Origin: Antedon mediterranea
Lineage: Eukaryota > Echinodermata > Crinoidea > Comatulida > Antedonidae
DNA: 64,000 bases
Reading direction: 5' to 3'
NCBI RefSeq assembly: GCF_964355755.1
Contig: NC_092674.1
Span: 12,343,001 to 12,407,000, forward strand
Position 1 is the first letter of the stretch. Each line of letters opens with the position of its first letter. Below, in pieces: positions 12,241-60,539 of this stretch. Both the position numbers and the translations under genes were made by a program. The notes under the pieces are model-generated. The model did no database searches and was not told the DNA's origin. It was given only the letters and a program-made list of their open reading frames with translations.

Positions 12241-13699
12241 GCTGTACCCTCCGGCTAACTTACCTGCTGTGTCTTAACTCTCCTTTTATTATTCAGCTCT
12301 AATTTTCTCTTTCTTTTCTCTAATCTTCTCTACACTTTGTTTTCCAATTTCTCTAATGTCCCTACTTATTTTACACGTCTTCTCCCTGCTTCTCCGCTTT
12401 TCCAGCTCCAATCTCTCCTTCCTTTTTAACGCAGCTTGAGGTAACCCTCCATTGCCTTCCTTCTCCAATCCCTCTCTGCCCTTTCTCTCAAGTTAGACCG
12501 GGCGCCCGGAAGATTTATTCATGTGAAAAGATACAAAAGGTTTGATGATGTAGTTAGGTGCGTATTAAGGCGAGATGCAATATTCGATATTGCTGCCGGG
12601 TCACAGCCTGTACATGGGGCCTGTGGGGATCATAACATAGGGGGGTAAAAATGCATTTATTCATGTGAAGCGATACAAGGATAAACTTTTTTGGATATCA
12701 TTCGCAGTGGGCTACTAATGATTACATCACCAATGACAGCAACTTTATCCTGTACGGGGCGCCAAACAGCAACATTTTAGGGCCACGCCCAAATGGGTTT
12801 ATTCATGTGAAGCGATACAAGGTTGAATCTTTTTTTAATGGCAGCAGTACATATTGGGGATGACAAAAACACCAATGACAGCAACTTTATCCTGTACATA
12901 AGCTGAGACAGCAGCCCTAAAGGTCCGCAGATTCCCCCTATTCGGCTATATACTCGGTGCGTATGTCGTCTTATGGCGTTCAGCTGAGTTAGAAATACGT
13001 GATACGGACTCGTACTGACAATAAATAGCCTACACAGCAGAATGATAAAACAATAAATAAAGAGAGCAGTTGTTTGCTGTACCAAATCATCAAACATCAA
13101 ACTCTTAGGAACTCGCCCAAAATGGGTTTATCCATGAAGTATGAATCGTTTTTTCTTTCTTTCTCTCTTTTTTGCTCCATTCGTGATCAACAATGTCGAT
13201 AATACAAACACATTTACGATAACGAGTGACTTTTATTTTATAATTGAAATATATCTTTATTTTGGAATAATAAATAACACCAACAAAAACACTTAAAAAT
13301 AACCAACAGCAGATTTGTATTTTAGGGTAACATTTTGAACAATCAATATTATATCAAAATCATTATTTCGATCAAAATAATATAATTTAAGAATAGTTTT
13401 CAGATAAACTAAATAATTACACTCATATTGATTGACACCGGTACCTATTAGTGTACATTATTATTATAACTCCATTTAAATATTGTTTTAATTACACACT
13501 AGACACTAGTGATATTTCTATATGAAAAAAGGCAACGAAATCTAAATTTGCAACATTTTTTAACATAACATAACATAATAGTAAAGTAAATAATAGTGCG
13601 AATTCAACATAATCACTTAGAGAATTGGTAAGGTATAGATTAGACTATCGAAGGCACACTATTACTAAAAAATAAAAACCAACAAAAAACTGCCAACAT

Positions 13700-14290
13700 C
13701 TTAAACGTCGTTACTTGTCTATAATGCATAATGAATGGATCGACTACTGTATCGATTACTGCACATTGTTTTACTTTAACTGAACCAAAGTCAAACTTTT
13801 AATTGTTACTGTACTAACATTAGACAGTGATATCTGATAAAAGGCAACATTAATTAATATTAATAATACTGAACCAAATTAAATATCGTTACTTATCCAC
13901 ACTGGATCGACTACTGTATTGATTATTGCACATTATTTTACTAACTAACATAAGAAAGTGATATCTGATAAAACGCAACAAACTGAATCGAATTAAATAT
14001 CGTTACTTATCCATAATGGATCGACTACTGTATTGATTACTGCACATTATTTTACTATAACTGCCCAAGTCAAATTTAAAATTGTTACTGTACTGTACTA
14101 ACATTAGACAGTGATATCTGATAAAAGGCAACATACTCAAATTATCAAATTAAATATCGTTACTTATCCATAATGGATCGACTACTGTATCGATTATTGC
14201 ACATTATTTTACTGCCCAACTGCCCAAGTCAAATTTAAAATTGTTACATTAATAACATTGGACCAAATTAAATATCGTTACTTATCTCCA
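13700..14290. repeat. left-arm tandem units of element 1
   Basis: Diverged units of about 115-180 bp contain AAATATCGTTACTTATCCA, ATGGATCGACTACTGTAT and CAGTGATATCTGATAAAAGG. They are the inverted, shorter and less regular counterpart of the array at 15470-16530. Confidence 0.75.
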
Positions 14291-14483
14291 ACTGAACCCA
14301 GGTCGAATATTTTGCATACCGACACACTGTAAAAGCACACAATGAGCAAAGACATCGATTTTACTGGCTGTATGCATTAAATAACTAAATATTGTACATT
14401 CCTCATATTCCATTACTAGCTGAACAGAATACACGATATAATAAAACCAATAGGGGCTATTGGATTTCTATAATCACACTGTA

Positions 14484-15030
14484 ATGATACTGGATTTTAC
14501 CGCAAAGGCAAGTCATTGCGATCGCTTTGTGGACAGGATGGACAAACCCGCAGTCACTGCCTATGTATGCAAGATATATGGGTTTAAAAGCATGAACAGT
14601 ATTAATGAGGCCAGGTACCAATCGTTTCGCAAAATGACAACTGGAAAGAAGAAAGTCAAGAAGATCAACTGTTCGTCATTGCCACCATGTGAAATCACAA
14701 TCACCCAGCATCTGTTGAAGGAAAATTATGTATCTATTATGTGGAGACACGCTCATACTCCTCAGCCAACACAAAACCTACGCCCATTAAACTATGGATG
14801 GGTTGATAATGGTGATGGAAGGTATGTACCGAAATGGTTTGATGGAAATGCTCTACCAGATCCGTTGACTAGTGATCCACACTCGGAACAAAGTTCTTCA
14901 CGATACTGATGCAGGAATATTGGAACAAACTGATGATGAAGAACTTGAAATAATAGATTTTGAAGCTGAAATCGATGATGACCAACCTTGGAGTGATGAC
15001 AGTGAAAGTGACTGTGATGATGACGAATAG
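14484..15030 (+). CDS. core protein of palindromic element 1, one frameshift
   Basis: This is the only coding sequence of the element. The open frame runs from about 14454; the first ATG is at 14484 and it stops at 14909. A one-base shift near 14890 continues in another frame to TAG at 15028-15030, ending in a strongly acidic tail (EEL.., then DDDQPWSDDSESDCDDDE). The body has a basic stretch (GKKKVKK), then SLPPCEITITQHLLKENYV, an IMWRHAH segment, LNYGWVDNGDGRYVPKWFDG and LPDPL. This PP-x..H-x..Y-x..W-x..GW-x..W/Y-x-P-x-W order equals the C-terminal module of the PIN-like protein at 40490-40720. No catalytic motif is visible, so the ORF is either the C-terminal remnant of a larger transposase or an accessory protein. 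Function unknown. Confidence 0.6.
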
Positions 15031-15469
15031 ATAAACTAAAAAGATTATGCATTACGGCTGATTTAATAGTTTTTAATCGTTTACATAAAACATTTGACAG
15101 TTTTGAAGTAAATATTGTATAATATATCAAATGTAAATACTGAAATATTTGATCCATAGATAGTTGGCAAGCAGAATCCAGTATCATTACAGTGTGATAT
15201 AATCAAATTTATAAATGACGCTGTCACAAATCATGTAAAAAGAAATACAATACCCCCTATTGGTTTTATTATATCGTGTATTCTTTTTAGCTAGTAACAA
15301 TGGAATATGATGAATGTACAATATTCAGTTATTTAATGCATACAGCCAGTAACCACGATGTCTTTGCTCAATTGTGCTTTTACAGTGTGTCGGTAGTTAC
15401 ACTGCATGTAAAATATTCGACCTGGGTTCAGTTAGAGAAAAATAATGTGCAATAATCAATACAGTAGTC

Positions 15470-16530
15470 GATCCATTGTGGATAAGTAACGATATTTACT
15501 TTTGTCCAGTATTATTAATGTTGCCTTTTATCAGATATCACTGTATAATGTTAGTACAGTAACAATTTTAAATTTGACTTCGGCAGTTTTAGTAAAATAA
15601 TGTGCAATAATCGATACAGTAGTCGATCCATTATGGATAAGTAACGATATTTAATTTGGTCCTGAGTATGTTGCATTTTATCAGATATCACTGTATAATG
15701 TTAGTACAGTAACAATTTTTAAATTGACTTGGGCAGTTATAGTAAAATAATGTGCAATAATCGATACAGTAGTCGATCCATTATGGATAAGTAACGATAT
15801 TTAATTTGGTCCTGAGTATGTTGCATTTTATCAGATATCACTGTCTAATGTTAGTACAGGAACAATTTTAAATTTGACTTGGGCAGTTATAGTAAAATAA
15901 TGTGCAATAATCGATACAGTAGTCGATCCATTATGGATAAGTAACGATATTTAATTTGGTCCTGAGTATGTTGCATTTTATCAGATATCACTGTATAATG
16001 TTAGTACAGTAACAATTTTAAAATTGACTTGGGCAGTTATAGTAAAATTATGTGCAATAATCGATACAGTAGTTGATCCATTATGGATAAGTAACGATAT
16101 TTAATTTGGTCCTGAGTATGTTGCATTTTATCAGATATCACTGTCTAATGTTAGTACAGTAACAATTTTAAATTTGACTTGGGCAGTTATAGTAAAATAA
16201 TGTGCAGTAATCAATACAGTAGTCGATCCATTATGGATAAGTAACGATATTTAATTCGATTCAGTTTGTTGCGTTTTATCAGATATCACTTTCTTATGTC
16301 AGTTAGTAAATAATGTGCAATAACCAATACAGTAGTCGATCCATTGTGGATAAGTAACGATATTTAATTTGGTTCAGTATTATTAATATTAATTAATGTT
16401 GCCTTTTATCAGATATCACTGTCTAATATTAGTACAGTAACAATTAAAAATTTGACTTTGTTTTTCAGTTAAAGTAAAACAATGTGCAGAAATCGATACA
16501 GTAGTCGATCCATTATGGACAAGTAACGAT
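15470..16530. repeat. 150-bp tandem array in right arm of element 1
   Basis: GTCGATCCATTATGGATAAG recurs near 15472, 15622, 15772, 15922, 16072, 16222, 16337 and 16505. The first six are spaced almost exactly 150 bp apart and the units are nearly identical, so this arm was homogenised or expanded recently. The left arm has only four or five irregular units, so the palindrome is asymmetric here. Confidence 0.88.
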
Positions 16531-17896
16531 GTTTAAAATGTTGGTAGATTAAGTTATTTGTTGGTTTTTATCAGTCTAATTCACATGAAAACGGTTACTT
16601 TTTTTTTATTTAGATTGAATTAAAAATACAGTAATAGTGTGCAATCGATAGTCTAATCTATACCTTACCAATTCTCTAAGTGATTATGTTGAATTCGAAC
16701 TATTATTTACTTTACTATTATGTTATGTTATGTAAAAAATGTTGCAAATTTAGATTTCGTTGCCTTTTTTCATATAGACATATCACTAGTGTCTAGTGTG
16801 TAATTAAAACAATATTTAAATCGAGTTATAATAATAATGCACAATAATCGGTACCGGTGTCGATCATTATGAGTGTAATTATTAATTAGTTTATCTGTAA
16901 AATATTCTTAAATTATATTATTTTGTGTTGTGAAATAATGATTTTGATATAATATTGATTGTTCAAAATGATACCCTAAAATACAAATATGCTGTTGGTT
17001 ATTTTAAGTGTTTTTGTTGGTGTTATTTATTTATTCCAAAATAAAGATATATTTCAATTATAAAATAAAAGTCACTCGTTATCGTGAATGTGTTTGTATT
17101 ATCGACATTGTTGATCACGAATGGAGCCTCGGGTATTTGAGCTGCTCAAAAATGATTACACACTTCATGGATAAACCCATTTTGGGCGAGTTCCTAAGAG
17201 TTTTTTGATGATTTGGTACTGGAAACAACTGCTCTCTTTATTTATTGTTTTAGCATTCTACTGTGTATTTATTGTCAGTCCGAGTCCGTATCACGTATTT
17301 CTAACTCAGCTGAACGCCATTAGACGACATACGCGCCGAGAGTATATAGCCGAATAGGAGGAAACTGCGGACCTTTAGGGCTGCTGTCTGAGCTTATGTA
17401 CAGGATAAAGTTGCTGTCATTGGTGTTTTTGTCATCCCCAATATATACTGCTGCCATTAAAAAAAGATTCAACCTTGTATCGCTTCACATGAATAAACCC
17501 ATTTGGGCGTGGCCCTAAAATGTTGCTGTTTGGCGCCCCGTACAGGATAAAGTTGCTGTCATTGGTGATGTAATCATTAGTAGCCCACTGCGAATGATAT
17601 CCAAAAAAGATTATCCTTGTATCGCTTCACATAAATAAATGCATTTTTACCCCCCTATGTTATGATCCCCACAGGCCCTATGTACAGGCTGTGACCCGGC
17701 AGCAATGTCGAATATTGCATCTCGCCCTAATACGCACCTAACTACATCATCAAACCTTTTGTATCTTTTCACATGAATAAATCTTCCGGGCGCCCGGTCT
17801 AAGTCTCACGTCCGTTCTCTGCTTCTCTTCCTGCCTAAACTCTGCCTCAATCTGCCGCCCTCTATATTTCCTTCTACCCCAAAATCATTACAGTAT

Positions 17897-22021: not shown

Positions 22022-22105
22022 AGTGCTGAATGTACGATCGAGACTGTTCGAATATGAAATCGTGTTGCCAAGTTGTTTTGTTTATTAATTGTTTAGTCCT
22101 TAGCC

Positions 22106-25149: not shown

Positions 25150-25150
<1 letters not shown>
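24061..25150. other. AT-rich non-coding; possible LINE 3' fragment near 24720-24830
   Basis: The stretch near 24720-24830 (TAAAAAGTACATAATG, then AAAACCTGGCTAACCCAG) resembles 37010-37060, interpreted there as the 3' end of a reversed LINE. No gene is seen in the rest. Confidence 0.35.

Positions 25151-25179
<29 letters not shown>
25151..25179. repeat. (ATT)n microsatellite
   Basis: About ten ATT units in a row. Confidence 0.9.
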
Positions 25180-25181
<2 letters not shown>

Positions 25182-29712: not shown

Positions 29713-30090
29713 TAGAAATGCATTATAGACACTTTCCTTGATTACCTTTCTTAATGTGATTGATTGTACGGTATCAATAAAGCATTACTTTCATAACTTC
29801 AACATGCCTTCACTCAGTTTTGTATTGCCTACCAACAGCATATCATTTTATAGAACATCGATCGTCTTCATTCCCAATAACAATAATAATAGAAACAATG
29901 GAGATAAAAAGTAACAATAATAACAATAATAATGACGATGACTACGATGATGCCGACGCTGACGACGACGATGACGATCTTATGACAATAACAAAACATT
30001 ACTAATACTGAGACAGTTACAGGAACGATACCACTTTAACATTAGGCTACAATTTCTTTTTCATTCCACATACAACATGAGGTAGTGAAA

Positions 30091-33000
30091 ATGAATGACA
30101 GTGAATTTGACTTATTCAATTTTTATTTACTTCCCAGTTCTACCGATGTAGAGCATACGCCAGCAACAGTTCTGCCAGTACTACCCACTCCCGAACTAAC
30201 CCCAGCGGCCGGCAGTACTCAATCTCTGCCTCAAGACGTACCAATGATTCATTATGGTCCAAAAAGACATGGTATTGTCCAGACTACTTATGATGTCAAC
30301 GAGAACACAGTGCCTCACCACATTCAACACTTTCAACCAAAAGGACTCTTCAACCAAAATAACCTATGCCAGTATTGCTTGGCATACCGATTTGAAAAAG
30401 AAACAATAGGATTCTGCTGCAAACAAGGAAAGGTTGACTTACCCTCTCTACCAGACCTTCCGGAATATATCAGAACACTATTTGACCAGCAATCATTCCT
30501 CAATAACATCAGAGCATACAACAATGCTATGGCCCTTGCATCAATAGGTGTTAATGAGGAGCGCCTACCTGGATATTCGCCGACATTCAAAGTCCACGGT
30601 AAAGTGTATCACTATATAGGTTCGTTACTTCCTGACTCACCAGCATCCCCAAAATTTGCTCAACTCTACTTCTATGACGCGACAGAAGACCAACAGGCTC
30701 ACCAAAGGTGTACCAATTCACCCACACATCTAACCCCAACTATGCTAAAGGGACTTCAAGAGACACTACGAACCAGCAATCCATACATAGCAAGTATGAA
30801 ATCTGTGATTGAATTGCCAAACCTGTCCTCCAAAAAATTAATACTGTCAACCAAAAACAAACCCAGTGCAGGGCATAACAGAAAATACAATTTACCACAA
30901 ACCAATGAAATAGCCGTATTACAGCTCAATGAATCATGCAATACTACTGACATTATTCTTCATCTCCGCGGAGGTGGGCTCACACGGATATATGACATAC
31001 ATCGTTCATACGATCCTCTCCATTATATCATCATGTTTCCCCGCGGTGCAGACGGTTACCATGACGACATGAAGCTGCAGAATGACAAACGGATGTCGCC
31101 TACCAACTATTACTGCTACCGGCTACAGACACGTAAAGATCAGTTCAACACCATTTCAAAATGCCGCCGACTTATGCAACAGTATGCTGTTGATGCTTTC
31201 TCAAAGGCAGAGCGTCAAAGACTTCGCTGGGCTCGCAACAATCAGAAGGTTCTCAGGGCTGAAAAATATAAATGCCTCATTGACGCAGTAAACAGGCAAG
31301 ATAATGTACGCAACTTAGGAAAAGTGATTGTGCTTCCACCTACAATTTACGGAAGTCCCAGATGGTATGCGCAACAATACCAAGACGCAATGGCATTAAT
31401 GCGGACGTACGGCAAGCCGGATTATTTCATTACGTTTACATGTAATCCAAAGTGGCAAGAAATTATCGACTCCATTCATCCTGGTGAAAAGCCACAAGAC
31501 CGACCGGACATTTGTAACCGTGCATTTAACAACCGGCTCCGGTTCTTCTTGGATGACCTGTTTAAACTAGACATTCTTGGAAACATTGTTGCCTACACAC
31601 TTATGACAGAATTCCAAAAGAGAGGATTACCACATGTCCACATTGTTGCCATACTAGCTAAGGAAGATAAGCCCCGAAATCCAGCGGACATCGACAAAAT
31701 TGTATGTGCTGAAATACCTGTCGCCTCGGACAATCCCCGCTTACATAACATTATTACTACCTGTATGATTCATGGACCGTGCGGCCACCACGATATATCA
31801 GCACCCTGCATGAAAACGGACAAAGGTCTTATAAAGTGTGACAAGCATTTTCCGAAACCACTCCGATCTCACACCATCATGAGTCCAGACACAGGTGCAA
31901 TTTATCGCAGAAGGTCTCCCGTTGAAGGAGGACAAACAGCTACTGTTAAACGCCGAACAACCACTCACACAGTCGACAACACCTTTGTCGTACCGTACAA
32001 TCCGATTCTTACCTTAAAATACAACGCACACATTAACATCGAAATAGTCACAACAATAAAGGCAGTGAAGTACATATACAAATACATCACCAAGGGAAAC
32101 GATAGAGTTATGGTTAAGTTACCGTCGGGAGAGGACGCACATGATGAAATAGAATCATTTGCAAATGCCCGTTATATTAGTGCGTCAGAAGCTATATGGC
32201 GGCTGTACGAGTTTCCACTCACCAGACGACATCCTGCCGTTAAGAAACTGCCTATCCATTTAGAACACGACCAAATGGGATATTTCAACCCTGACGACTC
32301 CAATGGATTGCAGAATGCTATCAACAAATCTGAAAAAACCATGCTAACCGCATTCTTTGACTTAAATTCTAAAACTGCGTCGGATCTCATATATCCAAAC
32401 ATCGTAAGCAGATATATATACACAAACCACGTATGGCAACCACGGAAACGACACACCTCAAGAAATGACCACTTGTGTGATACTATCGGCAGGTTACCAG
32501 TCATAAATTTAAATGCTCACCAGAAAGAACTATATTTCCTTCGCATATTACTGCTACACATTTTAAATCCTACCAGCTTCATTGATCTTCGCACTGTCAG
32601 TGGAATAACATATGACACTAACCATGCTGCCTGTGTTGCTTTAGGATTATATGAAGATGACAGTGAAATTGATAAAGCCATGGAAGAAGCTGCTTCTATC
32701 CAGTTTGGAAACACCATCCGACAGGTATTCGCTACAATATTGCTTTACATTGTCCCCTGTAATCCCAACCAATTCTTCAACAGACACGTACAGATTCTCA
32801 CAGAGGACTTTCAACGTCGCGACCACACTACTACACCCACCCAATCACAAATCAATGAGGCCTTAACCCTCATAAACCACGTCCTTCAAAGAGGTGGGAA
32901 ATCATTAGAACACTTCAATCTACCAACCCCAGACCCTGAAACAAATGCCGCATCCCAAGTCATACGTGAAGAAACAACATACGAAAACAGTCAGCTGAAA

Positions 33001-33444
33001 ATGATCTTAGACTCAAACCTACCACTACTAAACAAACCACAACGTGATGTATACAATTCTGTCGTGGACTCTACCGTCAACCGAAAAGGTACACTCTTCC
33101 ACTTAGATGCACCTGGTGGTACTGGCAAAACATTCACCATTAACCTCATCTTAGCCGAAATACGACGTCGGGGTCTCATTGCACTTGCTGTAGCTACAAG
33201 TGGTATCGCTGCAACACTCTTACCAAATGGTCGCACTATCCATTCTCGGTTTAAAGTCCCACTAAAAGTAAATGACAACTCAACCTGCAATATTTCGATA
33301 CAGTCACCTTTGGCATGCTTAATTAAAGATACATCACTTATCGTTATTGATGAAGTCACGATGGCCAATAAGCACGTATTTGAAACAGTTGATCGTACAG
33401 TACGTGACATACGGAGCAACGATAAACCATTCGGTGTGGGATAA
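30091..33444 (+). CDS. Helitron RepHel transposase, N-terminal and Rep part
   Basis: Rolling-circle transposase of a Helitron, 1117 codons from ATG 30091 before a frameshift. It contains the Helitron-like N-terminal domain with a zinc-binding CQYC...CC pattern near residues 110-125, then the Rep nuclease. The HUH motif is HVH in FQKRGLPHVHIVAI (about residue 515). The two tyrosines are in KYIYKYITKGND (about 661-671, likely Y662 and Y666). The SF1B (Pif1-like) helicase begins with Walker A GGTGKTF (about 1008) and Walker B IDEVTMAN (about 1087). All catalytic residues seen are intact. Two extra bases (GTGT for GT) near 33435 break the frame just after DKPFG. Known role: nicking and joining one DNA strand at Helitron ends and unwinding the donor. 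Confidence 0.92.
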   Translation: MNDSEFDLFNFYLLPSSTDVEHTPATVLPVLPTPELTPAAGSTQSLPQDVPMIHYGPKRHGIVQTTYDVNENTVPHHIQHFQPKGLFNQNNLCQYCLAYRFEKETIGFCCKQGKVDLPSLPDLPEYIRTLFDQQSFLNNIRAYNNAMALASIGVNEERLPGYSPTFKVHGKVYHYIGSLLPDSPASPKFAQLYFYDATEDQQAHQRCTNSPTHLTPTMLKGLQETLRTSNPYIASMKSVIELPNLSSKKLILSTKNKPSAGHNRKYNLPQTNEIAVLQLNESCNTTDIILHLRGGGLTRIYDIHRSYDPLHYIIMFPRGADGYHDDMKLQNDKRMSPTNYYCYRLQTRKDQFNTISKCRRLMQQYAVDAFSKAERQRLRWARNNQKVLRAEKYKCLIDAVNRQDNVRNLGKVIVLPPTIYGSPRWYAQQYQDAMALMRTYGKPDYFITFTCNPKWQEIIDSIHPGEKPQDRPDICNRAFNNRLRFFLDDLFKLDILGNIVAYTLMTEFQKRGLPHVHIVAILAKEDKPRNPADIDKIVCAEIPVASDNPRLHNIITTCMIHGPCGHHDISAPCMKTDKGLIKCDKHFPKPLRSHTIMSPDTGAIYRRRSPVEGGQTATVKRRTTTHTVDNTFVVPYNPILTLKYNAHINIEIVTTIKAVKYIYKYITKGNDRVMVKLPSGEDAHDEIESFANARYISASEAIWRLYEFPLTRRHPAVKKLPIHLEHDQMGYFNPDDSNGLQNAINKSEKTMLTAFFDLNSKTASDLIYPNIVSRYIYTNHVWQPRKRHTSRNDHLCDTIGRLPVINLNAHQKELYFLRILLLHILNPTSFIDLRTVSGITYDTNHAACVALGLYEDDSEIDKAMEEAASIQFGNTIRQVFATILLYIVPCNPNQFFNRHVQILTEDFQRRDHTTTPTQSQINEALTLINHVLQRGGKSLEHFNLPTPDPETNAASQVIREETTYENSQLKMILDSNLPLLNKPQRDVYNSVVDSTVNRKGTLFHLDAPGGTGKTFTINLILAEIRRRGLIALAVATSGIAATLLPNGRTIHSRFKVPLKVNDNSTCNISIQSPLACLIKDTSLIVIDEVTMANKHVFETVDRTVRDIRSNDKPFGVG

Positions 33445-34406
33445 CTCTCCTCCTAGCAGGCGATTGGCGACAGATCCTTCCAGTGATTCCCAAAGGCGGC
33501 AAAGCTGAAATACTACAAGCAACACTGAAGACATCATACCTTTGGAAGAGTATCCAATCGCTTAAATTGACAGACAACTTACGTGTTATCCATTCATATG
33601 GCAACGTAGATCAACTTCGCCAATTTTCACATCTTCTTCTTTCAATAGGAGAAGGTACAAAGGAGGAAATTGACAAAGATACAATCGCCCTACCAGACCA
33701 TTTTTTTTCAACTGCTACTTCGCTACAGCAATTTTGTCAAGAAATATTTCCCGGAATTACCAAAAACATTTCCCATACTACACTTTGCTCTAACGCAATC
33801 ATATGCCCAACAAACGAAAATGTAACAAAGGTCAATGACTGCTTTATAAATTTATTTCCCGGACCAGTTACAACATATCTCAGCTATGATTCGGTACAAG
33901 ACGAGGCAGAACACCAATATCCAACAGAATTCTTAAACGATCTGTTCCTGCCTAGCCTACCTCCTCACAAGCTAATACTTAAGCCCGGTATTCCAGTAAT
34001 GCTTTTACGAAACATAGACCCTAAGAATGGACACTGCAATGGAGCTAGATACATAGTCAAAACTCTACTAGACAGAGTCATCCATGCATCCATTGCTATG
34101 GGGCCACACAAAGGCAAAAACCTATTGATACCACGTTTTAAATTATCACCAGATGATCCGACACTACCCTTCGTTTTGACCAGAAAGCAGTTTCCTATTC
34201 GAGTATGCTTCAGTATCACATCTAACAAAAGTCAAGGTCAAACACTAAACAGAATTGGTATTTTTCTGGACCAACAGTTCTTTACCCATGGACAACTGTA
34301 TGTATCTTTAAGCAGAGTTGGCCACCCAGACAACATCAAAATATACAATCCGCACTCAGTTATCAGGAACCAAGTGTCCAATATTGTCTACAAAGAGGTA
34401 CTGTAA
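33434..34406 (+). CDS. Helitron RepHel, C-terminal helicase part (frameshifted)
   Basis: This continues RepHel in a new frame. From about 33434 it reads ITLLLAGDWRQILPVIPKGG, the Pif1 helicase motif III region that should directly follow DKPFG. Later come the CSNAIICPTNENV segment, LKPGIPVMLLRNID, and the helicase V/VI motifs ITSNKSQGQTL and HGQLYVSLSRV, and it ends at TAA 34404-34406. With the upstream part the protein is about 1440 residues, normal for RepHel. A single 2-base insertion is the only lesion visible, so this copy died recently, or the base calls are wrong there. Confidence 0.92.
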
Positions 34407-37447: not shown

Positions 37448-37739
37448 GGACGTTTCAGTTTCTGTCTATACGTCAAGGATTCAGAATATTTTTCCTTTAG
37501 CAGTTTGTTGACCTCCAAAACGCCATTTGTACCAGTCACACTGATTGCGTCAATGAGAACTTTAACGTTGGTTGCATTGAAACGGCTAGAGCAACGTTTC
37601 ATTAAATTAAATAACTCCATGTAGTAGGCCTGTTAAGTGACCCAATCCTTCAAATTGTGATAACATTCTGAAACTTTGCACAGTTATTCATTAGGGTGTC
37701 AAAAATATGAAATGGAAGGGTTGCACAAAATTTGGTCAG

Positions 37740-38520
37740 GGGAAAGCCGCCATTTTGGATTTCAAAATGGCGAACCCAAATTGTTCACTTTTCAGGTATA
37801 TCTCTGCTAAATAGGCACCTAGAGTTCTGAATTTAGGTGCAAATTATATGGTAATGGGGTCACCAAAGATATTGGTATAACTAACATTTTAATTGCATGG
37901 CGGCCATTTTGGATTTCAAAATGGCGTACTTCAAATTTTCACTTTTTAGGTATATCTCTGCTAAAGAGGACCTAGAGTTCTGATTTTAGGTGCAAATTAT
38001 ATGGTAGTGGGGTCACCAAACATACTGGTATAACTAACATTTTGATTTCGTGGCGGCCATGTTGGATTTTAAAATGGCGGATTTCAAATTTTCATTTTTC
38101 AGGCATATCTCTGCTAAAAAGGCACCTAGAGTTCTGATTTTAGGTGCAAATTATATGTTAATGGGGTCACCAAACATATTGGTATAACTAACATTTTGAT
38201 TGCATGGTGGCCATTTTGGATTTCAAAATGGCGGACTTCAAATTTTCACTTTTCAGGTATCTCTGCTAAAAAGGTACACAGAGTTCTGATTTTAGGTGCC
38301 AATTATATGGTAATGGGTAACCAAACATATTGGTATTTAACTGACATTTTTATTGCATGGCGGCCATTTTGAATTTCAAAATGGCGAACTCAAAATGTTT
38401 CAGTACGGTACCTACAGTTATAATTTTAGGTACAAAGTATAATATAGTATTGAGGTCAACAAACATATTGGTATAACGTCTTTGATTGCATGGCGGCCAT
38501 TTTGAATGTAGCTCAACCCG
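37740..38520. repeat. about 153-bp tandem units with ATGGCGGCCATTTTG cores
   Basis: CATTTTGGATTTCAAAATGG-like cores recur near 37751, 37906, 38058, 38212, 38366 and 38497. Each unit also has ATCTCTGCTAAA and AGAGTTCTGATTTTAGGTGC. The core is a short inverted repeat containing CAAAATGGCGG. The inverted counterparts are near 40780, 41025 and 41170. Confidence 0.85.
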
Positions 38521-38639
38521 TACTGGCTTTACACTATTTGTTTATGTTCATAATTACATGCATTTAACACGGACACTTATTGTAGGTCACATTTTCCTTG
38601 GCAACCACACAGCTCTGCATTTACAGCATCCAAGATCAC

Positions 38640-39775
38640 AGTCGGTGTGTCCACACAATCGGTGTGTCCACAGCGAATTAAAACCTTCGTGACATCTGAA
38701 AGTTCCGGCAATGAACTCCAAGCTAGACTAAATTTGTTGCCGTCCTTCCTCTATCCCCAGTTCGCTGGGTCCTGTTCAATTCTGAATGCATCTAGACAGT
38801 CGTACCACTTCCTGGCTTCCGTTTCACATGTTCTCTTAATGCCGCAGATGTTGGGGGATATTTTCAATAGCCTTTCTCTTGTTGTAAAAAGATATCGTCT
38901 TGCATCATTAAATGTTCTGCAGTAGAAATAGTTACAACAAACTGTTCTAGATAATCTGTGTCTGTTTCACTAACATGCCCTACAGACAATGACATCCTCT
39001 TAAAAACTGGAGTCATACATGGCATCTTTTTCAAAGTCTCGTTAAATGTAGCTTTACCTTTTCCTTAAACAGATGAAGTTCTATCACAACCGCTAATGGT
39101 ATGAAAGAACAAGTAAGCGGCTGATGCTTGTGATCCAAGAAAAGAAGCAATCGTGTGTATTGGGATGTACTTCAAGTGCTTCCCCACTCCAAACTCGATC
39201 CGAAGCTCGTGGATGCCAGGTATTCTGTGGAAAGCTAACAACAACATCACTGTGTACAGTCTTGACAATGCGTGGAAAATTTCAGCGGCAAGTTTAACGT
39301 GAACAAACATACGTTCATCTGCCTCTTCTATGTTACATGGCATCAGCGATTGTATATTTACTGGTTTGTTACAGCTCTGTCTCCCAAAGACCCTACAAAC
39401 ATTCCGTGATTTGTGCCAATGTTCTCTACTACTTCAGTTACAATAAATAAAAACAACTCTGATTTGTTGTCATCAAATCTAAAAAATGTGGTCCAATTGT
39501 TGGGCAAGCTCCCGCTGGCTTTAACGACCCTCCTTACACCAGAGACGCGGTTTGAACGCGTACTAGACTTTAAACTGTCGTTAAAGTATCTATCGAAAAA
39601 CAAATCTAGTCGTGTCACTGATCGAAGTTGATGGTTGTATGCTACTTGATATATACTCAATGAATGTCTTCGAATCATTGGTCCTGAGCATATTGATTAT
39701 TGCTGGTCCATCTAACACATTGGCAGCAACTAATGGTGCTTTATTTTGTCGTACAACCATATATAGACCATCAAC
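38640..39775 (-). pseudogene. PIN/XPG-like transposon protein, left-arm copy
   Basis: Minus-strand fragments in order: LDGPAIINMLRTNDSKTFIE (in the central spacer), then RLDLFFDRYFNDSLKSSTR, RRVVKASGSLPNNW, DDNKSELFLF and MPCNIEEADERMFVHVK. After a damaged stretch where DSD is lost come FHRIPGIHELRIEFGVGKHL, SQASAAYLFFHTISGCD, and finally the PP...GW module near 38640-38830. The EAD and (in the right copy) DSD acidic motifs resemble the metal-binding residues of PIN/FEN1/XPG nucleases. At least three frame breaks make it non-functional. The spacer part has no partner in the right arm, so this arm carries the longer gene copy. Confidence 0.7.
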
Positions 39776-39959
39776 TTCGATCAGTGACGTGACCAGATTT
39801 GGTTTTCGATAAATACTCTAACGACGGTTTAAAGTCTAGTACGCGTTCAATCGCGGCTCTGGTGTAAGGAGGGCGTCAAAGCCAGTGGGAGCATGCCCAA
39901 CAATTGGACCACATATTCGAGATATGATGACAACAAATCAGAGTTGTTTCATTAATTGT

Positions 39960-40720
39960 AACTGAAGTAGTAGAGAACATTGACACAAATCACGGAATGT
40001 TTGTAGGGTCTCTGAGAGACAGAGCTGTAACAAACCAGTCTGTAAATATAAAACCGCTGATGCCATGTAACATAGAAGAGGCAGATGAACGTATGTTTGT
40101 TCATGTTAAACATGCCGCTAAAATTTGTCCGCGCATTCTTGTCAAGACTGTAGACAGTGATGTTGTTGTTATTTCATTGTCAACTTTCCACAGAATACCT
40201 GGCATCCACGAGCTTTGGATCGAGTTTGGAGTGGGGAAGCACTTGAAGTATATCTCAATACACAAGATTACTTCTCTTGGATCACAAGCATCAGCCGCTT
40301 ACTTGTTCTTTCATTCCTTTAGCAGTTGTGATACAACTTCATCTGTTCAAAGAAAGGAATTTGAGACGATGTCATTGTCTGTAGGGGATGTTAGTGACAC
40401 AGATTATCTAGAACAGTTTGTTGTAACTATGTAGAAAGAAGGTAAATGATGCAAGACGATATCTTTTTACTATACAGACTATTGAAAATATCCCCCCAAC
40501 ATCTGCGGCATTAAGAGAACATGTGAAACAGTCTTTTATACAAGCCAGAAAGTGGTACAACTGTCTAAATGCATTCAGGGTTGAACAGGAACCAGCAAAC
40601 TGGGGATGGAGGAAGGACGGCAACAAATTTAGTCCAGTTTGGAGTTTATTGCCGGAACTTTCAGATGTCACAAATCGCTGTGACACACCGACTATGATCT
40701 TGGACGCTGTAAATGCAGAA
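39960..40720 (+). pseudogene. PIN/XPG-like transposon protein, right-arm copy
   Basis: ORF 39997-40434 (first residues MFVGSLRDRAVTNQ) contains MPCNIEEADERMFVHVKHAA, then ILVKTVDSDVVVIS, IPGIHELWIEFGVGKHLKY, and SAAYLFFHSFSSCDTTSS. EAD plus DSD plus a later D match the acidic set of the PIN/FEN1/XPG fold. A stop at 40432-40434 and a shift are followed by ENIPPTSAALREHVKQSFIQ, ARKWYN, NWGWRKDGNKFSPVW and LPEL. That is the PP-H-W-GW-W module shared with the protein at 14484-15030. Its order matches a protein family common in repeats of marine invertebrates. Function is inferred from motifs only. Confidence 0.72.
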
Positions 40721-41339
40721 AGAGTGATTTATGATGTACAGAGCTGTGTGGTTACCAGGTTTGAGCTACATTCAAAATGGCCGCCATGCAATCAAAGACG
40801 TTATACCTATATGTTTGTTGACCTCAATACCATATTATACTTTGTACCTAAAATTATAACTGTAGGCACCGTACTGAAACATATTGGCCATGCAATCAAA
40901 ATGTTAGTTAAATAGCAATATATTTGGTGACCCATTACCATATAATTTGCACTTAAAATCAGAGCACTGTGTACCTTTTTAGCAGAGATATACCTGAAAT
41001 GTGAAAATTTGAAATCCGCCATTTTGAAATCCAACATGGCCGCCATGCAATCAAATGTTAATTATACCAATATGTTTGGTGACCCCACTACCATATATTT
41101 TGCAGGTAAAATCAGAACTCAAGGTGCCTCTTTAGCAGAGATATACCTGACAAGTGAAAATTTGAGGTGCGCCATTTTGAAATCCAAAATGGCGGCTTTC
41201 CCCTGACAAAATGTTGTGCAACCCTTCCATTTCATATTTTTGACACCCTAATGAATAACTGTGCAAAGTTTCAAAATGTTATCACAATTTGAAGGATTTG
41301 CCTAAAATATGCTCCTTAACATGCCTACTAATGGTAGTG

Positions 41340-42139: not shown

Positions 42140-42800
42140 TTTCCAAATCATATTGTTGGCTTGATGATGGTTCACACTGTTGACTTGATTATGGTTCACA
42201 TTGTTGACTTGATGATGGTTCACATTGTTGACTTGATTATGGTTCACATTAACTTGATGATGGTTCACATTAATGTGATGATGGTTCACATTGTTGACTT
42301 GATGATGGTTCACATTGTTGACTTGATTATGGTTCACATTGTTGACTTGATGATGGTTCACATAAACTTGATGATTATTCACATTGTTGACTTGATGATG
42401 GTTCGCATTGTTGACTTGATTATGGTTCACATTGTTGACTTGATGATGGTTCACATTAACTTGATGATGGTTCACATTAATTTGATGATGGTTCACATTG
42501 TTGACTTGATGACTGTTCACATTAACTTGATGATTGTTCACATTAACTTGATGATGGTTCACATTAACTTGATGATGGTTTACTTTAACTTGATGATGGT
42601 TCATATTGTTGACTTGATGATGATTCACATTGTTGACTTGATGATGGATCAAATTGACTTGATGATGGTTCACATTAACTTGATGATGATTCACATTGTT
42701 GACTTGATGATGGTTCGCGTTGTTGATTTGATGATGGTTTCCGTTGTTGACTTGATGATGATTCACATTGTTGACTTGATGATGGTTGAAATTGTTGATT
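42140..42800. repeat. minisatellite of 21- and 24-bp units
   Basis: Units TTGATGATGGTTCACATTAAC (21 bp; first 20 TTGATGATGGTTCACATTAA) and a 24-bp version with ATTGTTGAC alternate about 28 times. All unit lengths are multiples of three, which keeps both strands open (DLMMVHIV on plus, NHHQVNNV on minus). The 268- and 217-codon frames are therefore artefacts of the repeat, although transcription cannot be excluded. Confidence 0.85.
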
Positions 42801-42954
42801 TAGCTCCTAATAAATAAAATAATGCATACATTATCAACTTTTATAGTATATCCACAAAGGATGGACATTTAATTAATTGTATTATTTAAACTAAATTAAC
42901 ATCATGTAAAATTTGTAAACATATACAAGATATGAATAGTTACATTACAATTAC

Positions 42955-43503
42955 CTTCGAGTTCTGTAACAACATTATACTCCAATAGTATTTTTCTTGC
43001 TTTTCCTCCAAGACGATCTGCAAATATTTGTATTTTTTCTTGATCATCTGCTAATTCTTCCTCTTTCTCCAGATGGAGAACTGCATCCCAAACATTGGAG
43101 AAGTTATATTTTGTCAAGTCATAGTAAGCAGTAACATTATGTAATGCATTTGGGTCAAGTTGTTTCAAGGTCTTAAAAAGTTGCTTTCTGTAAGGTGACA
43201 ACTTTTTACCAGTATTTTTATTCTCAACCTTGTTGTCTGTCATATACTTTGATACAAGATCTTTTGACAGTGTCATTTCAGATGTTTTTGTAATCTCTAA
43301 CAGTAAGTTAACATTAGTTGGCGAGATTAAACCCTTGTGTTCAAGGTCGTTGAGTAAGTCATGTCCATTGACATTTATATTTGTAATTTCACTGACATCC
43401 AATTGATCACATAGTAGGAACCTTAGCAAACGGTATCTTTCACCGACAAAGCATTTACCAAGATTAGCTTTTAAATTTCGGAAATTGTTGTAAGTTTTAG
43501 AAT
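42955..43503 (-). CDS. death-effector-domain exon
   Basis: This minus-strand exon of 549 bp has phase-1 introns on both sides (two bases, 182 codons, one base). It is bounded by acceptor TTTTATTTTCAG and donor GTAATT. Residues of about 25-85 (YRLLRFLLCDQLDVSEI, then NGHDLLNDLEHKGLISPTN, LLLEITKTSEM) fit a death effector domain: hydrophobic helix 1, the DL-LE-GLI segment and the N-x-x-x-L-x-E helix. A second alpha-helical region follows (PYRKQLFKTLKQLDPNALH, then NVWDAVLHLEKEEELADDQE), possibly another death-fold or unrelated helical domain. Known role of DEDs: homotypic adaptor interactions in apoptosis and innate immunity. Which adaptor or caspase this is cannot be told from one exon. Confidence 0.72.
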
Positions 43504-51670: not shown

Positions 51671-51680
51671 CGGCGTCACG

Positions 51681-52589: not shown

Positions 52590-52659
52590 GGCGTCACGCT
52601 CAGGCACATATCGCCGTCTGACAATATTGAGGGCGCTTGACTTTTTCTATTTATTTTAC

Positions 52660-53780: not shown

Positions 53781-53879
53781 TTTGCCTTACTTTTATGTCA
53801 TCATATAATATTATAAATTATATATACAAACAGACATTAACATTTTTTTTAAATAATATTTATTATTTTTTCTGACACT

Positions 53880-55655
53880 TTCAGGAATCGTTGATGATGC
53901 AGAGTTCTTTGTCTTTGTGACTTCAAACTGAGAGTGAAGTGGATAAAAAGATGATACCGGTACCTACCGACATTGTCATACCCAAACTATAATTTAATTA
54001 TTTAAAACAAAATGTTGAATTACAAATATATGTTGTAGATGATTTAGATGAATTACAATACAAATATTTATGTTGAATGCAAACCTACTACACTATACTA
54101 TGTAAATTATGTTATTGTCATGTGGTAGACCTTAAAAATTGAATATTTATTGTATGTTAGGCCTATTTTATATTTTATTAATACTGTATTAGTTTAATAT
54201 TACTATTAATTTATATTATACAGTACTAGGCCTAGTTTGTACATGTTTTTACCCCCAAAAAAATGAATAAATAATTTGTTATTCAATCTAATTGCTTGTT
54301 TGTTCATCAATAACAAAACAATTGTAAGCAAGTATGTAACAGTTCTTGTTAGCCGCTTATTTCAGGTCATATTATTAATATTAGCTAAGCCCGACGCGCC
54401 CGATCACAACGTCACTAGGTGACTTTCCGCCCCTGGAACAATCGCTCGCTAATAGGGCTAGGCCTCGGACTCGTATAAAAGCTATTATAATAGTTATGAT
54501 AAATATTCCTCAACTAAAATGTATACTGTGATAAATAAACAAGTAATAATATACGTTGTATTGGAATGTATTTATTTATATGAATTCTTATACGCGGAAA
54601 ATTATAAACATCGCGTATATCGTTCGCTATAAATACATTCATAAACACGATGACGATGTGTTTACAATGGCGGTTTCGCTAGTTTTCGATGGAACAAATA
54701 GTGGTACCTTTAGTTTGAATAGTCGGAGCTGCATCCCAACCACCGAATTTTGTATCTTAATATCGTATTCTGTAGATTATTCATTTTTCTAACAGGGATT
54801 TTAAATTCAGGACTGTTCAATTTTTCTAAATATTTTATTTTAATGATTTTCTAGGGTACAATTTCGGAAAAAAGACATTGGTTGATTTTGCCGTTAAATT
54901 ACAGATTATCGTTTTGTTCAAATATATTTAATTTTACATGACAATATATTAAAACCATTTATGAATTTATTTCACTAACAACATTTTTCCGATAATCAAC
55001 TAAATTTACAAATATTGTGTTTTTCCAACACCCTAAAATTTAGCCATTTTGAACTAAATTAGAAAAGTAGGGCGCCCTCTCCGAGTCGAAATTTGACACG
55101 ATTTGTCGACTGGCTGTCCCACTGGTAACCAAAGTGTAATGTAGTGCTAGATAACAAACAAGCCAACACCTACATTGTTTCTACCCCATACTCTGACAAT
55201 GCTACAGTCAATGATTGGTGGCCATTTTCATGGATGGCTAATGTTTGATGACCGTTTTTTTTAATACTACATTTTTATTTATTACAATCATCATTCTCAA
55301 TTTAGACTTGTTTTTGCATTTCAAATACTTACAATTCACTTTCACTGGATCAATATCATTTGACTCTTGTGATAGTAATACTGTTGCCTTTAGGACTTTT
55401 GCTGATGATTGTGTTTTTCTTTTTAAAAGAAATGTCTTGTAAGGTTCTGTACGCCATAGGTCTTTAGCCTTGACAGTCTACAAAAAAGAAGACATACTTA
55501 GATACACAGTACAGCTCTAAGGCACTATAGTAACATTGATTGCTGTGATGAATAAATATTATACAATTGTTTATATATATTTTTTTCTAAATATTTTTTT
55601 TATACTGGTAATGCCTTCATTCAAGTTTTTCTCCCAATGAGAAATATATAAATGG
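53880..55655. other. non-coding or unassigned
   Basis: Short frames at 53657, 54556 and 55245 have no motifs. The words GAATAGTCGGAGCTGCATCC (54718) and GAATAGTCGGAGGTGCATCC (45178) are shared with 45 kb, so part is another diverged dispersed repeat. GC-richer sequence lies near 54385-54475. Confidence 0.35.
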
Positions 55656-56637
55656 CTATATAGGCTAGTCCATCTAGCATTTTGAGTGAAACAAATTGCA
55701 AACAGAGATTGTCTCGAAAGTATGTAAATTAGTAGTACAAGTTAAATAAAATATGCAAATAATGGAGAAAAAATACAGTTGTCTTATATCTCGAAAAATA
55801 CTAATGCTAGGGAGTTGATTTTTTTCACAGCTGTATTAAGAATGTACATATTTATATTTGCTCCAATAAAACATTTTAAAATTTAGTAAATTTCAAACTC
55901 ACACATGTATCACTCACCACCAAAGTACAGTATTCAAATTCTTAGTACAAGTTACATGAAATATACAAATTAGGGGGTGAAATTACAGGTTCCTATATAT
56001 CGAAAACCACTAAGGCTAGAGAGTTGATTTTTAAAAAAAAATGTTCAGAATGTACATATTTATATTTTCTCTAATGAAACATTTTACGAAAAAATGACTG
56101 GAAATACATAAATTGACCCTCGACCCCATTTATCAATGTTTGCATATATAATGCGACTAACATGTCTGTAGAGACTTTATTTTAGACTCAAATGACTCGG
56201 ATACCGGTTTCTTATAATCTGCATAGGACCGCTTTGTAATTTCCAAAATCACATATTTGTTACACACCTCGAAAGTATGCAAAGTAGTAGTACAAATTAC
56301 ATGAAATATGCAAATAAGAGAGTAATATTATAGTCTTCCCATATCTCGAAAACCATTAATGATAGAGAGTTGTTTTTTTCAAGGCCTTATTCAGAATGTA
56401 CATATTTATATTCGCTCTAATGAAACATTTTACAAAACAATTATCAAAAGTATGACATTTGACCCTCGACCCTATTTCTCAATATTTGCATATAATGTAA
56501 CTAAAATGTCTGTACAGACTTTGTTTTGGCCTCAAATGACTCATATACAGGTTTTCTATAGCTAGCATAGAACTGTTTACTAATTCTCAAAATCACACCT
56601 TTTCACTTCCCTTGAAAGTATGCAAATTAGTAGTACA

Positions 56638-59620
56638 ACAGGTGAAAGTTGCCATATCTCTATCGGTCATTATATTAGCTGGAGATATGAATGCAAAAAC
56701 GGGGGACAGCCATCATGAATACCCACAATGTGTAGGAAGATATGGTAAAGGAAAAACGAACAATAATGAAACACAGCTAGTCGAATGTGCACTAAGAAAT
56801 AATCTAGTACTAACAAATACCATGTTTAAACATAAGATGTCACATAGGACTACGTGGGAATGCCCGCAGAGACGCGATCAGCATAACGATCAGAAGAGTG
56901 GAGAGATCAGACGCAACCCCTACAGAAACCAGATCGATTACATTCTAGTTAAGAATTCACACATGAAGCTAGTCACTAACGCAAGAGCATACAGTGGTAC
57001 GAGAACATACACTGATCATAGATTAGTCAAGACAACCTTAACACTACAATGGTATAAATGAAATAGTTACGCTAAGAAAACCAAACAAATAGATGTGTCA
57101 AAACTTCAAGCACAACAAAACAGACAAACATATCAAAGAGAGATGTATACAATCGGTAAACATCCAGGACCTGGAACCACAAGAGGAATGGACCAAATTA
57201 ACGACAGTCTTTCAGAATGTAGCATTGGAAGTGGTTGGCCACCGGAAAGCAAAGTCTAAATCAAACAATAAATATATACAAGAGTTATCGAAGAAGCAGA
57301 AACAGTTGAGGTGCGACATAAATTCATCAAATGACAAATCAAAGAAAACAAAACGAAAGAAAGAAATCAAATCATAAAGAATATTCATACTGAACTTAAT
57401 AAAGAAAAAGAAGACACACTAAAAGAAAAGATAGCTGAAATTGAAAAATTCAAAGATGACTCAACAAGAATGTACCAAGCAGTAAAAAACCTAAAACTTA
57501 ACGAAAATAAAAGACTTGTGGTAGAAACAGAGTTCGGTATAACAACAAACGAAGAAGAGCAGGTAGAAATAATTAGCAATTTCTTTGAAAACGTCTATCA
57601 CAAATCACAAGAAAAACCTATAAACGAAAACATTAAACCTATTGAAATGAAGTCTCCCTTTACAAGTGATGAAGTTGCCAAAGCAGCGAAATGCTTAAAA
57701 AATAATAAAAGCCCAGGAAGTGACCAAGTATACTCTGAAATGGTAAAATATGCACCTATAGAAGTTTTTAACCATATAGCAGAAATATATAACCAAAAAG
57801 CTAAAACAGGAAACATACCTAAAGAAATCAACGAAGGCATATTGCATCCAATACCGAAACCAGGCAAGAAAAAAGCTCCACCAAAAAACATCCGACCCAT
57901 CATCCTTCTGTCGGTTCTTAGGAAAATGCTAGCAATATGCTTACTAAATAGGATAAACGGCAGATTAGATGAACATTTCACAGGCCGCGTATCGCAGAGG
58001 ACGAGGCACTACCGAACATGTACATACATGCAAAATGTTAGCAGAAAAGGCAATTGCGTCATCTAACTACGAAATAATATTACTACTACTTGACATGACC
58101 AGTGCATTTGACACTGTGCGGAGGAATACTCTATTCGACATACTGACACATATATTACAAGATGATGAACTACACATGTTGAAAGTTTTGATAAACAATG
58201 TAAAATTAAGCGTTCGAATTGGAAAACAGACAGGAAAATTGTTTACTACTACACTAGGAGTACCACAAGGTGACTGTGTGTCTCCGATACTGTTCACACT
58301 ATACCTAAGGCACTCGAATAAGCAAACACAACACCACTGCCCCTACAACAGCTTAATATCCAGATGCAGTATGCAGATTTATTTATTTATTTATTTGTTC
58401 TTTCTTTAAACTGAAATACACTTTCAATACAAATGTACTGATTTCCAAAGTGGTTCAGTAAACATATTTACAACAAAAATAAAATATAAAAGAAAAACAA
58501 AAAGAAAGAAAACAGATATAAAACTATTTACAATTGTGAAGGCAAAAAGGTTAATACATATATGATTTCTATAGTGAAGATTTAAAAGTTGCCAAAGACA
58601 TATTATGGAGTTCTGATTTTATGTTATTTGGTAGAGAATTCCATAATTTAGTTGATCTATAAACAAAAGTTCTTTTACCCTGAGAGTTATTCCATAACGG
58701 AATAGATAAATCATTATTACTTTGGGAGCGAGTGCATTTATTATGGTTATCTACAGTAAATTGAAATAATATTGTTAAGTATCTTGGAGCTATTTCTTTT
58801 AAACATTTAAATAGCATTATAAGAATATTTCCATTCCATTTTTCTGTAAGTCTACTCCATCCAAGAGTATTTAAGATATCATTAATAGGAGTATACATGT
58901 CTACTGATGACATTTCATTTATTAGCGACTCAAAAAGAACACATAACTTAAATAAAGAAAAAAGTAACAGAGAAATTAGCAGAATTCAATCTAAAGATAA
59001 ACGAAAGTAAAACAGAAGAATACCTAATAGGAAGAAACACCGATAGTAAATGGGAAGAATGCAAATACCTCGGTAGAAACTTGGACACAGAAAAAGACAT
59101 TAAAAGAAGAAAATCACTAGCAGCTATGGCATATAACAAGCTGAAGTCGTCGCTAGAACACAAAACGATGTCTATAGACGTGAAATCCCGTTTGTTTGAC
59201 GCTTACATAGCAAGTATTTTCTTATATAACAGTGAACTCTGGGTACTATACAAAAAATTACAAGAGAGTATAGATATTATATCACAGGAATATGTTGCGA
59301 AAGATGATAGATATTAAATTAACAGATAGAGTATGTAACACAAAAATATACGAGATAACAAAACAAGAAGAATGGAGTAAAAGAATTAAACGAAGGAGAC
59401 TAAAATGGTATGGACACATATCAAATCAACAAACAATGAAGGAAACTAACAGGAAAGTAAAACGAGCCGTAGGAAGACCAAGAAATAACTGGATGAATCA
59501 AATAAAGAAAGACTTACAAGGACTAGTAGACACTAACACAATAACAAACCATCCTGCCATAAACAGAAAAAATGGAAACAAATTGTGGAAAGCGTAATGT
59601 CGGAAGACGGAAAACGTTAA
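56638..59620 (+). pseudogene. RTE-like LINE (endonuclease plus reverse transcriptase), broken
   Basis: 5'-truncated ORF2. The endonuclease end is at 56638-57061: IILAGDMNAKTG, NNLVLTNTMFKHK, RTTWECPQRRD, NQIDYILVKN and YTDHRLV. The linker and reverse transcriptase follow: LKNNKSPGSDQVYSEMVKYA, GILHPIPKPGKKK, NIRPIILLSVLRKML, AAYRRGRGTTEHVHTCKML, LLLDMTSAFDTV, TLGVPQGDCVSPILFTLYL, and QMQYAD at 58360-58378. After the inserted LINE it resumes DDISFISDSKRTHN (58906 on), CKYLGRNLDTEKDIKRRKSL, and the C-terminal RRRLKWYGHISN and AVGRPRNNW. At least five lesions: a stop at 57059-57061, shifts near 57140, 57370, 57965 and 59295, and the insertion. The RTE assignment rests on the endonuclease style and the GRPR C-terminus. 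Confidence 0.82.
58379..58905 (-). pseudogene. CR1/L2-type LINE 3' end inserted in the YADD box
   Basis: A minus-strand LINE copy whose tail (AAAT)n is at 58379-58398 on the plus strand. Its ORF2 C-terminus reads (minus) TPINDILNTLGWSRLTEKW, then IMLFKCLKEIAPRYLTILF, TRSQSNNDLSIP, QGKRTFVYRSTKLWNSLPN and LATFKSSL. This is the conserved post-RT region of CR1/L2-like LINEs. It is about 530 bp, 5'-truncated. Only GAT is repeated at the two junctions (58376-58378, 58906-58908), so a target duplication is minimal or absent. Confidence 0.85.
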
Positions 59621-60539
59621 CAACATTGTAATTTGCATATTTCATATAACTTGTACTACTAATTGTCATACTTTAGAGGTGCTTGACATTTATAATTACT
59701 AAACGGTCCTATACTGGCTATATAAAACTTGTATCCAAGTCATTTGAGGCCAAAACAAGGTCTGTACATACATTTTAGTTGCATTATATGCAAATATTAA
59801 GAAATAGGGTCGATGGTCAAATGTCATACTTCTGATAATTAAATAATAACATGTTTCATTAGAGCGAATATAAATATGTACATTCTGAATAAGGCCTTGA
59901 CAAAATCAGCTCTCTATCATTGGTTTTCGAGATATGGGAAGACTGTAATTTCACTCCCTTATTTGCATATTTCATGTAATTTGTACTACTAATTAGCATA
60001 ATTTCGAAATGCGTGACAGAGGCGTGATTTAAGGAATTACAAAGCGGTCCTATGCTGACGATAGGAAACCTGTATCCGAGTCATTTGAGTGCAAAACAAA
60101 GTCTCTACAGACATTTTAGTCGCATTATGTATGCAAACATTGAGAAATGGGGTCGAGGGTCAAATTTTTTACTTCCAGTCATTTTTTTGTAAAATGTTTC
60201 ATTAGAGCAAATATAAATATATACATTTTTAATAAATCAGTGAAAAAATCAACTCTCTCGGACTAGTAGTTTTTTAGATATGATAACCCTGTAATTTCAA
60301 CCTAATTTGCATATTTAGGCTAATTTGCATACCATCGGGTTGAGTGACAGAGGTGTGATGTTCAAATCTTGATCTCCTCATCATATGTGACCATTTAAAA
60401 AAGAAAAATCTCTGTTTGCAATTTGTTTCACTTTGGGCTGTTTTTTTAGCTAGATTGACTAGCCTAATACTGCAAATAAAAGTGTGTATCCTCTAAGAGA
60501 CTAATGAAAAGACAGAATTTTTATTCTAAGGCTCTGTCT

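Follow-up and report, generated by a model that had tools for sequence, protein, structure and literature searches.

Fold-back transposons of Antedon mediterranea as probable inverted copies of the 3' end of a nuclease-bearing transposon

Introduction

The origin of the satellite-like arms of fold-back transposons is often obscure, and a 64,000-nucleotide stretch of the genome of the crinoid Antedon mediterranea (C5:12343001-12407000 in an assembly that totals 354 Mb over 18 contigs; this whole stretch is referred to here as the window) raises the question of how such arms come into being, as it contains three elements of this kind, designated E1, E2 and E3, with different arm sequences and a common layout. 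The analysis described here suggests, with a probability of roughly three in four, that E1 and E2 are non-autonomous derivatives which arose through inverted copying of the 3' end of a transposon and were then amplified into families, E3 and a fourth element at another locus being likely members of the same system. The parent transposon would be one in which a single long protein combines a putative transposase part with a nuclease-like part.

Element ends, target-site duplications and families

The window was scanned for TAG...CTA ends flanked by identical 3-bp sequences, with scoring over 16 end positions. E1, E2 and E3, all of which open with TAG and close with CTA, scored 16, 15 and 15 of 16, respectively, everything else in the window reaching 13 at most; the chance level, estimated from 20 Markov-1 random windows, was a mean of 0.05 matches at 14 or above. 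E1 (12494..17801; 5,308 bp) has the ends TAGACCGGGCGCCCGG and a target-site duplication (TSD) of AGT at 12491-12493 and 17802-17804, E2 (37622..41330; 3,709 bp) has the ends TAGTAGGC and a TSD of ATG at 37619-37621 and 41331-41333, and E3 (55661..60466; 4,806 bp) has the ends TAGGCTAGTC and a TSD of ATA at 55658-55660 and 60467-60469. The TAG ends and the AGT, ATG and ATA duplications proposed by a first-pass annotation of the window are exact to the base, and the inverted arms and tandem units that it described agree with the measured arms (1.8 kb to about 1 kb) and units (150, 153 and 346 bp). The shared plan that it proposed also stands: each of the three elements has the fold-back layout, in which a middle of variable content is enclosed by long inverted arms that contain tandem repeats, and the same plan is displayed by a fourth element, found by chance at L027:4614-7537, with TAG ends, a TSD of ATA and 0.6-kb arms that are 70% identical. 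The small core that had been assigned to the elements describes E1; E2 is nearly coreless, with a spacer of 131 bp, and the core of E3 includes a reverse transcriptase fragment. What the arms-plus-core plan overlooked is a transposon gene inside the arms of E2 and the resemblance of the left arm of E1 to a copy of its right end.

Genome-wide, the end patterns of E1, E2 and E3 matched at 113, 141 and 453 places, respectively (0, 4 and 10 for the controls). Homology between copies starts no more than two bases from base 1 of the element in 38 of 40 scored places for E1 and no more than three bases from it in 33 of 40 places for E2, which supports the proposed ends of both families. The E1-family sample comprised 21 loci (that of the window and L009-L028), with both ends found in 15. 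An identical 3-bp flank is present in 13 of these 15 copies (AGT, TAT, TAC, TAA, AAA, GTC, CAA, TAT, TAT, CTG, TGT, AAT and TTT), about 0.2 being expected by chance, and L019 and L020 are the two both-ended copies that lack it. At the other six loci no right end was returned by the end-motif search, although L024, one of the six, still has the right arm to about ten bases from its end. A 3-bp duplication thus holds for most E1-family copies with both ends found; for E2 and E3 it was read in one copy each.

The E1 family is young, and the outer arms of 15 copies diverge by 0-2% from their nearest relative. The left arms of L014 and L016 are identical and their cores are 100% (rounded) identical, an identity that points to recent movement. 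Arm homogenization within E1 copies left no sign in these comparisons: the closest arm of another copy (the closest of 56 comparisons) was more similar than the partner arm in 15 of 15 cases. About 30 bp upstream of window base 1, at G000:C5:12342951-12342971, the minus strand carries an E1-type end that probably belongs to a further E1-family copy. Four plus-strand ends of the E2 type follow one another at intervals of about 4.8 kb, at G000:C6:11921267, 11926063, 11930856 and 11935651, and mark a tandem array that includes an E2 end.

Structure of E2

E2 is palindromic over almost its full length, with 91% identity over the outer 415 columns and 79% over the inner 2.1 kb, and part of a transposon gene is present in it twice, back to back. 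Both coding pieces match L063, an 816-residue open frame that is itself related to the longer L062 frame described below, and protein identity to this gene is mostly 35-50%. The left copy of the nuclease half (38600..39748, minus strand; its outer limit is approximate and is taken from the inverted repeats) is decayed and matches residues 404-729 of L063 at 39748-38819. The right copy (39757..40752, plus strand) matches residues 442-809, with an open frame at 39949-40431 that is followed by decayed sequence. The two inverted matches begin 9 bp apart, at 39748 and 39757, at an axis (39636..39766) consisting of the 131-bp spacer between the inverted copies. Both halves run outward into 153-bp repeats, with 4.3 copies in the left array (37749..38402) and 2.0 copies in the right array (40887..41193), and then into the same kind of end. 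E2 is thus best described as a palindrome of the 3' half of a transposon, as read from its sequence, and not as two arms with a core.

The same arrangement characterizes the family. Among the 100 places listed of the 141 that match the E2 end pattern, 25 inward-facing end pairs were found, and the nuclease matches occur in minus-then-plus order in 23 of them; the two exceptional pairs are a 2.0-kb copy with one plus match and a 640-bp copy with none. One inward pair is 8.1 kb long. The open frame of the right copy, of 167-168 amino acids, is kept in 14 genome copies (that of the window included) at 95-100% identity.

The nuclease-bearing protein and its relatives

The core protein of E1 matches a long open frame at C6:11350981 (L048; 865 amino acids, 65% identity). 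This frame lies within an interval of 8,148 bp (C6:11345644-11353791) whose two ends are of the E1 type, each with one mismatch, and the gene in the interval matches residues 565-1545 of the L062 protein at 39%, with one in-frame TAA. L062 is a complete frame of 1,550 amino acids, with a second copy at 99%, and aligns with L048 over 696 columns at 35%. Aligned directly, the E1 and E2 pieces share 18 residues (E 0.003); the relation of L062 to L048 and that of L063 to L062 indicate that E1 and E2 therefore carry C-terminal pieces of related proteins, so that the earlier proposal of two elements encoding related proteins was correct, by way of these longer relatives. Two uninterrupted frames of 1,555 codons, 99% identical and located at G000:C11:6753473-6756445 (minus strand) and C10:12121899-12124871 (plus strand), encode a putative transposase-nuclease.

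The C-terminal half of the 1,550-residue frame resembles FEN/XRN/XPG nucleases, chains of XRN, FEN and XPG proteins taking ranks 1-9 and 26 of the 50 rows of VIA-align 2. Foldseek gave no match for the nuclease half at E ≤ 0.001, XRN being mixed with unrelated folds. Residues 650-887 of the L062 protein match DUF6589 with E 5e-4, below the curated cut-off, and the predicted fold of the putative DDE part was unusable (predicted local distance difference test score of 31). Pfam searches with the pieces of transposon-gene remnants in the window returned only noise, sequence searches of the PDB yielded nothing relevant for these proteins, and no relatives of the E2 nuclease piece or of the L062 protein were confirmed in viral contigs.

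The 3' flank of L048 does not match the arms of E1, and L048 is for this reason regarded as a relative of E1 and not as its parent. Degenerate repeats at offsets of 314 and 334 were detected in this flank by blastn, Tandem Repeats Finder reporting none; 3' arms with repeats may be an ancient feature of this transposon group.

In another lineage, with identities to the E1 piece of mostly 31-34%, 21 pairs of neighbouring gene ends are all divergent, with no convergent and no tandem pair, and 14 of the 21 are spaced by 1,787-1,804 bp. The count covers 84 rows of 22-42% identity among the 144 match rows of the E1 piece, with the rows of the E1 family and one single row at 40% set aside.

Structure of E1

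The inverted arms of E1, of 1.77 and 1.81 kb, are 90% identical. The left arm (12494..14497, minus strand) resembles an inverted copy of the right end and comes to within about 150 bp of the stop codon of the gene. It is followed by the transposon-gene remnant (14490..15029, plus strand), which starts at codon ~468-470 of the L048 frame, covers the C-terminal portion of the nuclease half and has a frameshift near its end. The right arm (15176..17801, plus strand) contains 5.7 copies of a 150-bp unit at 15429-16290, and its inner part is continuous with the 3' side of the gene at locus L041, where an E1-type gene continues into the E1 core and inner arm at 89% over 1 kb. E1 has one gene copy only, in a single-copy loop of about 680 bp. 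At the left junction, located at codon ~470, the sequence ...ACTGGATT passes directly into TTACCGC..., with a 3-bp ATT microhomology shared with the gene. In the 12 E1-family loci that match the L048 protein, the match starts at residues 468-470 in nine, at 459 in L024 and at 460 in L028; in the window copy the tblastn match starts at 502, although the reading opens at the same FYRKGKS motif. LINE-like (long interspersed nuclear element) reverse transcriptase sequences occur in the cores of the E1-family loci L009, L010 and L011 (RVT_1 E 3e-29 in L009), and fold-back cores seem to accept LINE insertions, as in E3.

Taken by itself, E1 could also be read in the opposite direction, from long terminal inverted repeats (TIRs) that would be ancestral: autonomous elements would already have had kilobase arms on either side, and simple internal deletion would have produced the E1-type copies. 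The 1.8-kb arms of E1 and its core, a plain gene remnant, agree with such a history, as does the view, cited in PMC4079207, that fold-back forms arise by gene loss and TIR elongation. On the other hand, E2 has coding sequence in both arms, which no internal deletion yields, and in the 8,148-bp element with E1-type ends the 3' side measures about 2.3 kb from gene to end, against about 1.2 kb left for the 5' side (by arithmetic, for a protein of L062 length and no introns). Ancestral long TIRs are therefore considered unlikely.

Structure of E3

The arms of E3, of about 1 kb, are 84% identical over 683 columns. The left arm (55661..56638) contains 2.1 copies of a 346-bp unit (array 55929-56638), and the core (56639..59620, plus strand) is a decayed LINE, with RVT_1 at E 4.3e-12 and an endonuclease-like Exo_endo_phos match at E 0.006, below the cut-off. 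No transposase remnant was found in the E3 of the window. Among the 100 places listed of the 453 that match the E3 end pattern there are 37 inward end pairs, 19 of them 3.2-3.4 kb long, and comparison by eye found no pair holding a gene match. The evidence connecting E3 to the other elements comes from its tandem unit, which in the right arm (59621..60466) is similar to the 3' flank of the L063 gene, both pointing outward, with a score of 61 against maxima of 37 in 200 shuffles and 35 in 300 window pieces and a score of 20 in the reverse orientation. A 50-bp piece of the unit is also shared, at 86%, with the L027 element.

The absence of gene matches inside the 37 pairs would also be expected if E3 were unrelated to E1 and E2, either a TA-target element (TA + GGCTAGTC ends) or a member of another superfamily, with a chance ATA match and a LINE filling its middle. 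The TAG ends of E3 can indeed be read as a TA target followed by G, a single 3-bp flank match has a 1 in 64 chance, the E3 end differs from those of E1 and E2, and the E3 tandem unit is no closer to the E1 and E2 units than shuffled sequences are, no common motif having been found above shuffles among the three units. An independent origin is nevertheless improbable in view of the outward-oriented match to the L063 flank and of the piece shared with the L027 element, which has TAG ends and an ATA duplication of its own. E3 and the L027 element are most likely part of the same system as E1 and E2, their cores being either non-coding or occupied by other DNA, although sequence similarity ties E3 to that system only indirectly, through the tandem unit and L027.

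The tandem units measure 150 bp in E1, 153 bp in E2, about 151 and 302 bp in the L027 element, 346 bp in E3 and 314-334 bp in the L048 flank; these lengths cluster at around 150-170 bp or double that value, near a nucleosome repeat.

Proposed origin

The parent transposon would encode one long protein with a putative DDE transposase part and an XPG/FEN/XRN-like nuclease part. An inverted copy of its gene-proximal 3' end would have replaced the 5' half, the stretch copied comprising the end sequence, the tandem-repeat arm and the 3' untranslated region and, in E2, also part of the nuclease coding sequence. Fold-back or a template switch at a short homology is the simplest account of how E1 and E2 could have been built in this way. 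The product would be a near-palindrome in which both ends are copies of one transposon end, and, since both carry the same end, a transposase supplied in trans by another copy could still cut, move and insert it, generating a 3-bp duplication. Such palindromes would afterwards have been amplified into families.

Relation to known systems

The elements had been tentatively grouped into one, possibly Academ-like, superfamily. The nuclease of AcademX transposons goes by the name XPG. AcademX is described as having 3-4-bp target duplications and a link to a nuclease (PMC10045372); by that description, the 3-bp duplications of E1 are AcademX-like, and so would be the putative XPG/FEN/XRN-type nuclease half of the long transposon protein to which E1 and E2 are tied, while the palindromic 3'-half derivatives with tandem-repeat arms set the present elements apart. 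Membership of E1 and E2 in AcademX is likely. Repbase, according to PMC4455052, groups non-autonomous elements in which positions 1-11 can be aligned with at most one mismatch, and E1, E2 and E3 differ from one another by more than this and would not be merged.

E2 has the layout of Mu killer, a derivative of the maize Mutator transposon whose TIRs, as described in PMC3440606, are both derived from the end next to mudrA and which contains two partial copies of the gene, joined as an inverted repeat; E2 likewise has two gene-adjacent ends and two gene fragments in inverted order. For Mu killer the same paper describes a single locus, whereas 23 end-bounded copies of the E2 type were found among the 100 places listed of 141, and the present elements belong to another transposon group, which includes a further lineage with 21 divergent pairs. 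The likeness extends to function in a proposal modelled on Mu killer, in which the palindromes would act as silencers, hairpin RNA from their transcripts being directed against the parent transposase gene. The matching architecture (PMC3440606), in which both ends come from the side next to the gene and two partial copies of it lie in inverted order, agrees with such a role. The inner arms of E2 are, however, just ~79% alike, the E2 pieces mostly share 35-50% protein identity with the L063 gene, and the E2 family spread and was therefore not silenced at that time; a silencing role like that proposed for Mu killer is regarded as highly unlikely.

Tetris is described in PMC4079207 as a non-autonomous element with long inverted arms and 220-bp tandem units, with 8-10-bp duplications, a suggested affiliation with Mutator and no gene found, and Galileo is assigned there to the P superfamily. 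These and other Drosophila fold-back elements resemble those of A. mediterranea in being non-autonomous, with long inverted arms filled with tandem units, and differ from them in that the latter have 3-bp duplications and nuclease-gene remnants. Searches of mostly open-access literature retrieved no papers on fold-back or palindromic elements of Academ/XPG-type transposons and none on DUF6589. Fold-back transposons with tandem-repeat arms are already known, as is the layout of E2 (from Mu killer); what is new is that such elements occur in this transposon group, that they were amplified into families and that more than one lineage shows them.

Other features of the window

A Helitron is located at 30085-34406 (plus strand), with a 1,119-residue frame that matches Helitron_like_N (5e-56) and the PIF1 helicase (5e-44); the 307-residue frame that follows looks like a continuation of the helicase. 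A 175-residue frame at 42902-43429 (minus strand) matches a death effector domain with E 1e-4, below the cut-off, a match that hints at animal DNA. Minisatellites are present at 10430-11948 (~35-bp unit) and 42148-42798 (~24-bp unit).

Conclusions

The step from transposon to palindrome is readable in A. mediterranea because the arms of E2 keep parent coding sequence and E1 keeps the junction, and a similar outcome, reached in two or more lineages within a single genome, points to a mechanism that recurs. A broader and speculative extension, held with little confidence, is that there is a class of mobile palindromes, in which different nuclease-bearing families would time and again lose the 5' half and turn into elements with two 3' ends and a doubled nuclease region, spread with borrowed transposase and act back on the parent through hairpin RNA or truncated nuclease fragments. 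If true, such palindromes would be a mobile version of Mu killer in many copies, and a stage through which nuclease-bearing transposons regularly pass. The present findings extend the biology of fold-back elements to a little-studied group of nuclease-bearing transposons, in which silencing by such palindromes becomes testable.
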